This document shows positions 31,587-34,863 of a stretch of 35,245 nucleotides of DNA, piece after piece (position 1 is the first letter of the stretch; each line of letters starts with the position of its first letter). This stretch comes from Reyranella massiliensis 521 (lineage in GTDB: Bacteria; Pseudomonadota; Alphaproteobacteria; Reyranellales; Reyranellaceae): assembly GCA_945860205.1 (NCBI GenBank), contig CAMARK010000048.1, positions 1 through 35,245 of the forward strand, read 5' to 3'. The translations under genes were made by a program, and so were the position numbers. The notes beneath the pieces were generated by a model. That model was not told the origin of the DNA. It did not search any database and worked only from the letters and a program-made list of their open reading frames with translations.

Positions 31587-32789
31587 ATGTTCCAGGTCTC
31601 CGAGCGTCTCAAGAATGTAAAGGTGTCGGCGTCAGCCGCCATGACCCGCAAGGTGCGCGAACTGCGCGCCGAGGGCGTGAAGATCGTGGGCCTGTCGTCG
31701 GGCGAGCCCGACTTCCCGACGCCGCTGCATGCCATCGAGGCGGCGCACAAGGCAGCCCTGGCCGGCGACACCAAGTACCCGCCGCAGGACGGCGTGAAGC
31801 CGCTGAAGGAGGCGATCCGCGCCAAGTTCAAGCGCGACAACAACCTCGACTACGCGCTCGACGAGATCATGGTCTCCAACGGTAGCAAGCAGATCATGTA
31901 CGACGCGCTGATGGCGAGCGTGAACCCCGGCGACGAGGTGATCATCCCCGCACCTGGCTGGATCTCCTACGCCGACCAGGCGACGGTGGCCGGCGCCACG
32001 CCCGTGCCGGTGTCGTGTCCCGAGAACAACCAGTTCAAACTGCGCGCCGCCGACCTCGAGGCCGCGATCACGCCGCGGACCAAGTGGATGGTGCTGAACT
32101 TCCCCAACAACCCGACCGGGGCTGTGTGCTCGCGCGCCGAGATGCGCGAGATCGCTGACCTGCTGCTCGCCCATCCGCACGTGCTGATCATGGCCGACGA
32201 TGTCTACGAACACCTGATCTATGACGACTTCGGCTTCTGCACCATCGCCGAGGTCGAGCCGAAGCTGAAGGAGCGCACCCTGACGGTGAACGGCGCGTCG
32301 AAGGCCTATGCCATGACCGGCTGGCGGGTGGGCTTCGCCGGCGGGCCGAAGCCGCTGATCGCCGCCATGACCAACATGCAGGGCCAGATCGGTTCTGGCA
32401 TCTCGACCATCAGCCAGGCGGCGGCCACGGCGGCGCTCAACGGACCGCAGGAGCTGCTGAAGGAGCGCGCGGCCGACTACCAGAAGCGGCGCGACGAGGT
32501 CGTGACGATGCTGCGCGCGGCGCCGGGCATCACCTGCCACAAGCCCGAGGGCGCGTTCTACGTGTTCCCCAACATCGCAGGCTGCATCGGCAAGACCAGC
32601 AAGGGCGGCCGCAAGATCGACACCGACACCGCCTTCGTGACGGCGCTGCTCGAGGAGAAGCATGTCGCCACGGTGCAGGGCGCGGCCTACGGCATGAGCC
32701 CCTATTTCCGCATCTCCTACGCCACCGACCTGGCCAGCATCCGCGACGGCTGCGGCCGCATCCAGGAATTCTGCCGCGAGCTGCGCTGA
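31587..32789 (+). CDS. aspC: Class I/II pyridoxal-phosphate aminotransferase (aspartate type)
   Basis: PLP-dependent aminotransferase, 400 residues, close to the aspartate aminotransferase Ib/Iγ type of alphaproteobacteria. Visible residues are the PLP lysine in NGASKAYAMTGWRVG (Lys239), Asp204 and Tyr207 in MADDVYEHL, Asn174 in NFPNNPTG, and Arg247 in the GWRVG motif. The dicarboxylate-binding region near the N terminus is GLSSGEPDFPTP. AAGAAGG upstream supports the ATG at 31587. It overlaps no gene but is only 11 bases after the EamA stop, and the PIN-like membrane gene follows after three bases. Confidence 0.93.
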   Translation: MFQVSERLKNVKVSASAAMTRKVRELRAEGVKIVGLSSGEPDFPTPLHAIEAAHKAALAGDTKYPPQDGVKPLKEAIRAKFKRDNNLDYALDEIMVSNGSKQIMYDALMASVNPGDEVIIPAPGWISYADQATVAGATPVPVSCPENNQFKLRAADLEAAITPRTKWMVLNFPNNPTGAVCSRAEMREIADLLLAHPHVLIMADDVYEHLIYDDFGFCTIAEVEPKLKERTLTVNGASKAYAMTGWRVGFAGGPKPLIAAMTNMQGQIGSGISTISQAAATAALNGPQELLKERAADYQKRRDEVVTMLRAAPGITCHKPEGAFYVFPNIAGCIGKTSKGGRKIDTDTAFVTALLEEKHVATVQGAAYGMSPYFRISYATDLASIRDGCGRIQEFCRELR

Positions 32790-32792
32790 GCC

Positions 32793-33578
32793 GTGCTCTA
32801 CATTCTCGACAGTGGGGCGATCGTCGAGCGGCCCGAGATCCTCGCCCATGCCGCGGCGGGCGACCTGCTGATCCCCGGGGCCGTGGTCGACGACATTCGC
32901 GGCCGCCGGGAACGTGGGCTGCGCGGCGATCTCCAGAGCCTGCTCGAGCAGACGATCGAAGCCGGCGCCGTCGTCGCGCCGTCCGCCGATGGCGGCACCG
33001 CGGAACTCGCCGTCAAATGTGCCGGGGAAGGTGGCGCCGGGAATGTCCGCGTGGTCACGACCGACCGCCGGCTGGTCCGGCGCCTGGTCGCGAAGGGCGT
33101 GGCATCGGTCGGCACCGACCAATTCCTGGCCGAACTATCGACCGCATCTGTCGACGCTAGCATCGAGCAGGTTGCCCGGCGCATCGTGTCGGCGCAGCGT
33201 CGCCACCTCGCCGTCGGCCTGGCGATCGCCGTCGTTGCAACGGGCGTGGCCATCCTCGTCGTGCGCAACCATCAGCTGATCTTCCACACCGCACCCGACT
33301 GGATCGTGCCCATCGCGCTCTTACTGGCGGGGCTCGTCTTCTTCTGGTGGCGCGAGCGCGACCATCTCTCCTACGGGCTGTTCGAGGTCATGATCGGCCT
33401 GCTCATCTCCTCGCAGTCGATCGTCACGCTGCCCGCGCCCTACGAACTGTCGACCGCCAAGTCGATCCAGCTGGTGGGCGGTCTCTATGTCATGGTGCGC
33501 GGGTTCGACAACATAGACCGCAGCATCGAGGACACGCGTCTCGGCGGCTGGTGGAAACGACTGTTTCGCCGTGGATGA
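32793..33578 (+). CDS. PIN-like domain protein with C-terminal membrane segments
   Basis: A 261-residue protein with two parts. Residues 1-115 have a PIN-like nuclease pattern: YILDSGAI (Asp6), IPGAVVDDIRGRRER (Asp33/34, Glu40), and VVTTDRRLVRRLVAKGV (Asp91), with the trailing GTDQFLAEL. Acidic residues are at plausible PIN positions, but the family match is inferred by eye. Residues 138-160, 170-187 and 196-213 are hydrophobic and probably membrane-spanning; a further stretch at 223-238 ends in YVMVRGFDNI. The start is GTG at 32793, three bases after the aminotransferase stop, without a clear ribosome site, so translation probably depends on coupling. Confidence 0.7.
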   Translation: MLYILDSGAIVERPEILAHAAAGDLLIPGAVVDDIRGRRERGLRGDLQSLLEQTIEAGAVVAPSADGGTAELAVKCAGEGGAGNVRVVTTDRRLVRRLVAKGVASVGTDQFLAELSTASVDASIEQVARRIVSAQRRHLAVGLAIAVVATGVAILVVRNHQLIFHTAPDWIVPIALLLAGLVFFWWRERDHLSYGLFEVMIGLLISSQSIVTLPAPYELSTAKSIQLVGGLYVMVRGFDNIDRSIEDTRLGGWWKRLFRRG

Positions 33579-33581
33579 TGG

Positions 33582-33600
33582 AAAAACGGTCGGCAGACCG
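33582..33600 (-). terminator. Intrinsic terminator of the minus-strand lipoprotein gene
   Basis: On the minus strand CGGTC (33600-33596), loop TGCC, GACCG (33591-33587) is followed by TTTTT (33586-33582). It begins three bases after the stop codon at 33603-33605. The plus-strand version lacks a T-run, so it mainly ends transcripts of the lipoprotein gene. Confidence 0.7.
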
Positions 33601-33602
33601 GC

Positions 33603-34058
33603 CTAGACTTCTTTTATCCGTTTGAGCTGCGCCGGGATGCCGAGTTTGCGCGAGCAGAGCGGCCAGTGCCACGGCTCCTGCAGGTCGTAGATCATGTACC
33701 AGGTGAGGCTGGCGGCCTTCTCGTAGTCCTGCGTGTACTCGGCGGCTTCCTTCATCGTGAGCACCGTGCCATCGCGCATGCGTGTGTAGGTGATGAAGGT
33801 GCGCAGCGTGAACTGGAAGCGCCCATGATAGGCGCCGCGGCTGCCGTAGATCGGCCGCGCCGATGGTCCCCAGCTTCCGCTCTCGCAGGTCGCGAGCTGC
33901 TGCAGGAGCTGCTCCTTGCGATCGGCCAACTCCTGCTCACGCGGGGTGAGGCCGGGCGCGACGGCCGCGACTTCCGGCGGCTTCGAGCCCGCGCAACCGG
34001 CGATAGCCAGCGAAGCGGCAACGAGAAAAGGGAGAGTGGCGGCGCGAAGGGCGATCAC
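33603..34058 (-). CDS. Small lipoprotein with lysozyme-like signature
   Basis: A 151-residue exported protein of uncertain function. With the GTG at 34056-34058 as start, the N terminus gives a good signal peptide and lipobox (AIAGC, Cys22). Upstream in-frame residues are unlike protein and match the other strand's ORF. The mature part has an acidic helix (PREQELADRKEQLLQQLATCESG), and the string CESG...YHGRFQF (58-84) resembles the catalytic Glu and Gly-Gln-Phe core of lysozyme or Rpf-like transglycosylase folds. Glu59 would be the acid. Cys58 and Cys135 could pair. A lytic role in peptidoglycan is only inferred. The gene has its own terminator. Confidence 0.65.
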   Translation of the reverse strand: MIALRAATLPFLVAASLAIAGCAGSKPPEVAAVAPGLTPREQELADRKEQLLQQLATCESGSWGPSARPIYGSRGAYHGRFQFTLRTFITYTRMRDGTVLTMKEAAEYTQDYEKAASLTWYMIYDLQEPWHWPLCSRKLGIPAQLKRIKEV

Positions 34059-34169: not shown

Positions 34170-34376
34170 GTGAGCGACGATCTCAGCGCCGATCAGGTTC
34201 GCATGCTTCTGAAACTCGAACCCAACCAGACCTGCGGCTTCGTGCGCGTGACCAATGTCAGCGATCAGAAGATTGGAACCGAGCGACCTGTCGGCTCGGC
34301 GCTCTACTTCATGGTGACACCCGATGCACCGGTACGAGGACGGCGGCAGCGGCGTCACCGACATACATGGTGGTGA
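34170..34376 (+). pseudogene. Truncated DUF985-type cupin gene fragment
   Basis: A 68-residue frame starting MSDDLSADQVRMLLKLEPNQ, with TCGFVRVTNVSD and RPVGSALYFMVTP. This is the start of a DUF985 (cupin_5) sugar-binding-type protein as I know the family. The expected histidine-rich metal motif and second half of the barrel are missing. From about residue 58 the reading frame turns into Arg-rich sequence (RGRRQRRHRHTWW) and stops. About ten residues also seem deleted near residue 36. Most likely a decayed gene with a recombination junction near 34335, but a short, truly expressed protein cannot be ruled out. Confidence 0.6.
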
Positions 34377-34863
34377 ACAGCTAAAGGGCTTGGGTTCGGC
34401 GAGAGACGCGAAACGCATCTCGGTTTGGGCTGAGGAAGAGTTCCCCCGCTTTGGCTGGGTCTGCACTCCTCGCACGTATCTAAAATACATTGGAAAAATG
34501 ACCGATGGCGGGAGCGTTCACTACAAGAGCCGCCTTCCGACTTTCTCATACGCCATGGTGGGCGAACTCAGCCGCGCGCGACTGCTGGCCGCAAGGTCCT
34601 GGCAAGAAGGCGAGCTCGATCGCACCTTCCATGCCGAGTTGCGCGAGGAAGCAGCGGCCGAAGACGAAACTTGGGCCTTCAACAGCCACTACTCGATTGC
34701 CTGGGTAAGACGGATGCGACGCGTGCTCCATGTTCTACGGGGCGGGCAAGAGCACGCCGACGCCATGCTTCGAACATTCGAGCGCATCAATGTAAGGCAG
34801 CTCGGCTTGGAGGCGCATTGGACATCGCCCTGGCCGGAGCGGAGATGGCGAAGGGGTATTTAG
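34324..34863 (+). CDS. Unrecognised ORF, 179 residues, overlapping the cupin remnant
   Basis: A 179-residue frame in a different phase from the cupin fragment. I recognise no family. It is rich in Arg, Glu and Trp, with short motifs RFGWVCTPRTYLKY and HAELREEAAAEDETWAF, and it ends four bases inside the acyl-CoA synthetase end on the opposite strand. Codons and base composition are visibly less GC-rich than in neighbouring genes. The ATG at 34324 follows an in-frame TGA closely and has no obvious Shine-Dalgarno sequence. It may be a fragment of a larger foreign gene or a real small protein. Confidence 0.4.
   Translation: MHRYEDGGSGVTDIHGGEQLKGLGSARDAKRISVWAEEEFPRFGWVCTPRTYLKYIGKMTDGGSVHYKSRLPTFSYAMVGELSRARLLAARSWQEGELDRTFHAELREEAAAEDETWAFNSHYSIAWVRRMRRVLHVLRGGQEHADAMLRTFERINVRQLGLEAHWTSPWPERRWRRGI

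Follow-up and report, generated by a model that had tools for sequence, protein, structure and literature searches.

What does a nuclease-like domain do at the front of a membrane protein? This question is raised by one gene of the window, a stretch of 35,245 nucleotides from a contig of Reyranella massiliensis 521. Toxins and RNA decay commonly use PIN domains as RNases, yet few of these domains are known to be tied to a membrane. We wondered if the gene, here called PIN-TM, really joins a PIN domain to membrane helices, where else this arrangement occurs and what the protein may do.

PIN-TM occupies positions 32793..33578 of the forward strand, as an earlier note on this DNA had placed it, and encodes 261 amino acids from a GTG start, stop codon included in the interval. 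Relatives over the full length share 62-89% identity with the window protein; the remotest one in the genus, that of locus L058, shares 34%. Whole-gene dN/dS between the window and four relatives (L004-L007) is 0.17-0.28, by which PIN-TM is under purifying selection. Since full-length relatives exist and dN/dS is that low, the open reading frame is taken as a true gene and not as a chance frame. The two parts of the gene differ in all four pairs, with dN/dS of 0.27-0.40 for the PIN part versus 0.07-0.16 for the membrane part.

Upstream lies a class I/II aminotransferase gene on the same strand (31587..32789, forward; short name aspC; PF00155, E 1.5e-75), whose stop codon is 3 nt from the PIN-TM start. 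Downstream, on the far side of the variable site described below, a small lipoprotein-like gene (33603..34058, reverse) runs convergently, its stop codon 24 nt from the end of PIN-TM; the start codon of this gene is unsettled, its lipoprotein nature is a by-eye call and it has no Pfam family match. With 3 nt on one side and 24 nt on the other, no adjacent antitoxin gene is present, as the earlier note had remarked. Eight other window proteins were scanned against Pfam and none is a mobile-element protein.

To estimate the fold of the N-terminal part, AlphaFold2 was run with five close rows. Residues 1-115 show a PIN-like order of strands and helices, with block pLDDT of 65-81 up to residue 100 and 56 at residues 101-110 (whole-model mean 56.9). 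In VIA-align, over model residues 1-118, the best match is the SMG6 PIN domain (Z 12.7, rmsd 2.7, 115 aligned), followed by Thermus domain 3ix7, NMD4, DIS3 and others. PDB entry 3ix7, a Thermus domain which we take to be YacL-like, stands in row four (Z 10.7, rmsd 2.9, 105 aligned, 23% identity). The top rows of Foldseek are likewise PIN chains, with probability ~1 and E values of 0.009 and above, none at 0.001; VapC PIN chains are found in lower rows.

At the level of sequence, the window protein has no match to Pfam PIN models even at E 10, and none was found in its genome either. Its relatives come closer to PIN_4 (PF13638), with 21.3 bits for L007, 31.8 for L058 and 41.3 for L081, the curated cut-off of 21.9 serving as a working test of membership and not as a definition; L002 and L055 have no PIN_4 match. 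Among PDB sequences, phmmer with the L058 protein retrieved nothing at E 10, and the family profile A4 retrieved only DIS3 at E 0.29, level with unrelated chains. The predicted structure, together with PIN_4 in L058 and L081, supports the view that residues 1-118 (32793..33146, forward) fold as a PIN domain. The comparison with PIN folds that the earlier note had called for thus came out in favour of its PIN-like domain.

A second AlphaFold2 model was built from 11 mixed rows. Because rows with a diverged or absent PIN were mixed in, it was used for the membrane half only: block pLDDT of its PIN part falls to 33-71, Foldseek gives 236 matches, none at E 0.001, with the first PIN chains at ranks 25 and 26, and the best VIA-align Z is 5.5. 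Structure matches of this model are to be read as background for helices, and absence of a match among them proves nothing.

PIN nucleases are recognized by their acidic residues, and conservation of these was counted over the 11 sequences of alignment A7. The first acid, Asp6 (32808..32810), is acidic in all 11, as are the second, Asp34 (32892..32894; Glu in five), and the fourth, Asp91 within a T-x-D motif (33063..33065; Glu in L002). The third, Asp66 (32988..32990), is acidic in 8 of 11 and replaced by Gly in L002, L055 and L056; all four codons lie on the forward strand. Sixteen positions among window residues 1-115 carry Asp or Glu, and only 6, 34 and 91 are acidic in every sequence. Asp6 and Asp91, which had been proposed as plausible acids, are thereby upheld, and Asp34 and Asp66 are the two other canonical PIN places, unnamed in that proposal. 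A weak alignment to DIS3 (E 0.29) pairs D6 with the D of LDT, D34 with the E of DE and D66 with the D of ND; D91 lies one column off the D of TND. The window protein thus keeps all four canonical PIN places, the second being Asp instead of Glu; L058 and L081 keep the D/E/D/D set itself. That some close relatives lack the third acid speaks against activity, and cleavage of RNA or DNA by PIN-TM is an inference. A fold other than PIN and unconserved acids, the two outcomes that the earlier note had set against itself, did not appear.

The second half of the protein, residues 121-261 (33153..33575, forward), is a membrane module and the part under the strongest purifying selection. Hydropathy reveals three segments after the PIN domain: TM1 at residues 139-157, TM2 at 166-184 and TM3 at 195-213; it also flags residues 14-32, within PIN, at 1.24 versus a threshold of 1.2. 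The 11-row AlphaFold2 model places helices at 121-158, 171-189, 191-211, 221-245 and 249-258, with block pLDDT of 66-88 across residues 131-260, dropping to 58 at 211-220. Combined, the module consists of a long helix 121-158 containing TM1 (139-157), TM2 at about 166-189, TM3 at about 191-213, TM4 at about 221-245 and a C-terminal helix 249-258. The expected number of three or four membrane segments was therefore correct, and four is the likelier, since hydropathy gives three clear segments and AlphaFold2 four. Four Lys/Arg residues lie within the 15 residues ahead of TM1, and this positive charge would put the PIN domain on the cytosolic side.

Alignment of 20 modules reveals a two-part signature: Y194-G-x-x-E198 at the start of TM3 (33372..33386, forward) and Y232-x-x-V-R-G-x-D-N240 at the end of TM4 (33486..33512, forward). 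E198 is invariant, and R187, Y194, G195, Y232, V235, R236 and G237 are conserved at 90% or more; for the second part, the L082 row ends before it and L064 has VDG in place of VRG. Among the proteins tested, the module matches no Pfam, NCBIfam, PHROGs or PADLOC family at cut-off and so is without a model in the libraries searched. The nearest families, below cut-off, are DUF6114 in L007 (E 0.0012, 19.9 of 27.9 bits) and DUF4271 in the stand-alone module protein L015 (E 0.00045, 20.6 of 29.7 bits), and the module may have a distant tie to families of this type. The SLATT effector of NCBIfam was rejected at 11.5 bits versus a cut-off of 41, as were pyruvate kinase, Bax1 and similar names, which appear in sub-threshold lines only. 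PADLOC models gave no match at E 1 for the proteins of the window, L015, L081, L158, L159 and L162; L058 matched PDC-S70 at E 0.024 over 33 residues only.

We wondered how widely this architecture occurs. Profile search of 65 Reyranella genomes identified ten PIN-TM copies in nine of them, one copy (G065) being cut by a contig end. GenBank loci L004-L007 were not counted again, because their proteins are, by eye, four of these ten. The plasmid collection, queried with the window protein, returned a single record, pSULKU02 of Sulfuricurvum kujiense (Campylobacterota). Its protein L081 (WP_151174363.1, annotated as 'PIN domain-containing protein') aligns to 98% of the window protein at 31.4% identity (E 4e-31) and has the same architecture from end to end, differing in its D/E/D/D acids, a longer loop before the third acid and its plasmid context. 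The PIN-first membrane architecture, for which a search had been suggested, occurs in the Reyranella copies and on the Sulfuricurvum plasmid, and thus in two phyla. On the plasmid, PIN-TM is followed by a gene (L081, 4412-5218) that matches HNH_5 only weakly, at 17.2 of 27.5 bits.

Among 385 Alphaproteobacteria, with at most six candidates scored per genome, no full-length relative was found beyond the window's genome; searching the same genomes for the module retrieved, apart from the window, two hits, of which one is weak. No relative was seen in 11 genomes that belong to the order but not to Reyranella. In 258 Gammaproteobacteria, the search recovered G638, which is itself part of the profile, and a single weak hit. 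Four of the 65 Reyranella genomes encode the module with no PIN (the frame was read in all except G023), as do G638 and one Rhizobium etli plasmid. On the latter, a conjugative plasmid, the module-only protein (L165, 3890-4673) adjoins a Ref-family recombination nuclease.

Profile A4, run against 398 genomes of the window's phylum, matched 92 of them with E values up to 0.001. One is the genome of the window, another is G638 with its membrane-module protein, and in the other 90 the match falls between profile positions 1 and 107 and the frame has 360-632 codons. Three of the frames were read and are PIN-PhoH in appearance; for one, L083, PIN_4 plus PhoH was confirmed.

We also examined the chromosomal position of the Reyranella copies. 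Nine of the ten directly follow the aminotransferase gene, with a gap of 3 nt in six and of 23-25 nt in three (the cut locus L057 included); the tenth, L058, lies elsewhere. The aminotransferase loci with the best matches, 30 loci in 30 of the 65 genomes, include seven that have PIN-TM at this position. The spacing to the lipoprotein-like gene was measured in 22 of the 23 loci without PIN-TM (L134 omitted) and is at most 100 nt in ten, 227-461 nt in eleven and 1370 nt, with another frame, in one. By eye, 8 of the 11 loci with 227-461 nt contain a small basic frame.

The gap between the aminotransferase and lipoprotein-like genes (window 32789-33603; L111-L140) is a variable site in Reyranella. 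It is either near empty or filled by PIN-TM, by a small basic protein (MPRGDKSKYT...) or, in L119, by a 439-codon frame with the appearance, by eye, of a nucleotide cyclase. At another locus, L055 5124-6781, the gene of a 342-aa protein, whose PD-(D/E)XK match stays sub-threshold (E 0.0094), overlaps one that encodes 210 aa. The window at 34324-34863 encodes a relative of that 210-aa protein (41% over 56 aa), the 342-aa partner not being beside it, and resembles what an orphan partner might look like.

In the tree of aminotransferases, PIN-TM carriers cluster: two changes suffice and none of 500 shuffles scored that low, the fork of the tree being unresolved and L005 a long branch. Comparison of L005 (4004-5992) with the window reveals aminotransferase genes that are 72-82% identical per 150 nt over their first 900 nt and 91-96% over their last 300 nt, with PIN-TM at 79-95% nucleotide identity throughout. 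The L005 aminotransferase gene is likely a mosaic with a recombination edge, judged from these identities. The pattern points to recombination in the flank as the way by which PIN-TM, together with flanking DNA, reached a divergent locus.

Further, the module was found on 11 distinct viral contigs (L157-L163, L166, L168, L170 and L176). A profile scan detected seven; a pattern scan gave 21 matches, which by eye are the same seven, four new ones and ten unrelated. Eight of the 11 carry the module only, again by eye, and the L163 protein is the same as that of G638. Viral scans with profile A2 and with the L081 protein gave no relative, the scan with the L158 protein returned its own contig only, and phage records held no match to the L081 or L058 proteins. 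L158 lies behind tRNA-Ser and a tyrosine integrase, L159 behind tail and methyltransferase genes, and the module-only L160 and L162 have terminase genes nearby. The four-helix module, which has no model in the libraries searched, thus recurs on viral contigs, in the examined contexts near integrase, terminase or tail genes.

In the three remaining contigs, L157, L158 and L159, the module is preceded by an N-terminal part like the first half of PIN. One hhalign comparison of this part with PIN gave E 7.6e-5 and a probability of 62% over 63 columns; Pfam gave no match. The first acid is shifted by one place in L158 (Asp) and missing from L157 and L159; the second acid is Glu in L158 and L159; no T-x-D motif was seen in the three, the second half being without a safe alignment. 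Their PIN-like part is strongly diverged and probably decayed. In L157 (1214-2239), a single frame is split by a stop codon between its diverged PIN part and its membrane part.

Several known systems come close to this organization. PhoH2 proteins (PIN_4 plus PhoH ATPase, for example PIN-PhoH of Synechococcus) carry the same kind of N-terminal PIN, and profile A4 reaches such proteins next after its own family; between residues 4-44 of L058 and the PhoH2 model there is a weak match (17.3 of 680 bits). Membership in PhoH2 was rejected: the window protein has no PhoH match and its residues 121-261 are membrane helices instead. YacL-type proteins likewise join PIN to membrane helices, in the order membrane, PIN, TRAM. 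A place among YacL or PIN-TRAM proteins was rejected too, as no TRAM match was found to E 10 and PIN lies at residues 1-118 with the helices after it. Relative to the YacL order, the arrangement is reversed here, PIN first and membrane second, as had been claimed. The best structural matches, the PIN domains of eukaryotic SMG6, DIS3 and NMD4 (8-20% identity), belong to proteins that are not known to be membrane proteins. VapC has the PIN fold in common with PIN-TM, which differs in lacking an antitoxin, in its membrane module and in being of PIN_4 type.

Searches of the open-access literature retrieved no paper on PIN plus membrane or on PIN in Reyranella and, among the matches listed, none that names a PIN-first membrane protein in title or abstract start. 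Because PIN is known, and PIN with membrane is known in the other order, what appears new is the PIN-first membrane variant.

What may such a protein do? Our tentative proposal, the best placed of those weighed and still short of probable, is a membrane-tethered cytosolic PIN RNase that takes part in conflict between genetic elements (phages, other mobile elements). Starting from what was computed (the gene, its predicted fold, the conserved acids, the module, the two-phylum architecture, the accessory distribution and the module on viral contigs and plasmids), we infer the side of the membrane, catalysis, substrate, trigger and role. PIN-TM would be an inner-membrane protein with its N-terminal PIN, of the type that opens PhoH2, on the cytosolic side, and a long helix links this PIN to the four-helix module with Y-G-x-x-E and Y-x-x-V-R-G-x-D-N. 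The PIN domain, kept at the membrane, would cleave single-stranded RNA in a metal-dependent way; an event at the membrane would be passed by the module to PIN, which would be released or activated. PIN-TM would serve to limit an element that infects the cell, or to keep out a second one, rather than to turn over RNA in general.

In favour of the tethered RNase we count the PIN fold, PIN_4 in L058 and L081, the reach of A4 to PIN-PhoH, the acids, the charge ahead of TM1, the Sulfuricurvum plasmid, the 11 viral contigs, the presence at 7 of 30 aminotransferase loci and the L005 mosaic. Against it stand the loss of D66 in 3 of 11 sequences, Glu for D91 in one, the faster evolution of the PIN half, its diverged and probably decayed state in three viral-contig relatives, the lack of a PADLOC model match and the lack of mobile-element proteins among the eight scanned. 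In Synechococcus, inactivation of a PIN-PhoH operon is reported to have raised the yield of phage Syn9, with a median burst of 79 phages in the mutant versus 52 in wild type (PMC5490813). By analogy, this result shows only that a related PIN may act against phage.

The strongest alternative, unlikely on balance and ranking close behind the tethered RNase, reverses the roles. The module would be the effector, acting on the membrane or blocking entry of a second element, and PIN an RNA- or protein-binding sensor or regulator for which cutting is not needed; if PIN only binds and the module acts, PIN can decay. Selection on the module is indeed much tighter than on PIN in 4 of 4 pairs, a module that lacks PIN is seen in four of the 65 Reyranella genomes, on 8 of 11 viral contigs and on the Rhizobium etli plasmid, PIN is diverged in L157-L159, and D66 is lost in 3 of 11 sequences. 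Because PIN evolves faster and has probably decayed in the three viral-contig relatives, the module seems to matter more than catalysis. Against this reading, three catalytic places are the sole positions acidic in 11 of 11 sequences and L058 and L081 keep the D/E/D/D set, as one expects of an enzyme that is, or until recently was, active.

A housekeeping function, RNA decay or quality control near the membrane without a role in conflict, appears improbable. It would agree with the metabolic gene that PIN-TM adjoins and is probably translated with (3-nt gap, six loci), and with the Pfam-matched window neighbours, which among the eight proteins scanned are metabolic or transport genes, but PIN-TM is found in just 9 of 65 Reyranella genomes, at a variable site, and the module is carried by viral contigs and plasmids.

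We find it hard to see in PIN-TM the orphan VapC-like toxin of a toxin-antitoxin pair, to which its PIN fold, small gene and patchy distribution might point. No gene fits into the 3 or 23-25 nt upstream in 9 of 10 copies or into the 24 nt downstream in the window, the relatives match PIN_4 best among Pfam models, and the membrane module is present; since there is no room for an antitoxin, this reading was rejected. As for an assembly artefact or chance open frame, which the lack of an obvious Shine-Dalgarno sequence ahead of the GTG start (by eye) would suit, it has next to no probability and is already contradicted by the ten copies in Reyranella, by a further one of this architecture in another phylum and by dN/dS far under 1.

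Returning to the tethered RNase and its module, a bolder reading, which we regard as rather unlikely, is that the module represents an undescribed family of small inner-membrane proteins, which prophages, integrative elements and plasmids carry in two phyla or more, PIN-TM being its nuclease-armed form. An RNA-sensing or RNA-cutting head would then sit on a membrane effector that excludes a second element or aborts its infection, domesticated on the chromosome in some hosts. The conserved PIN-first membrane architecture, whose membrane half also occurs on viral contigs, makes PIN-TM a testable new candidate for conflict between elements, and the two-part signature lets the unnamed membrane family be collected.
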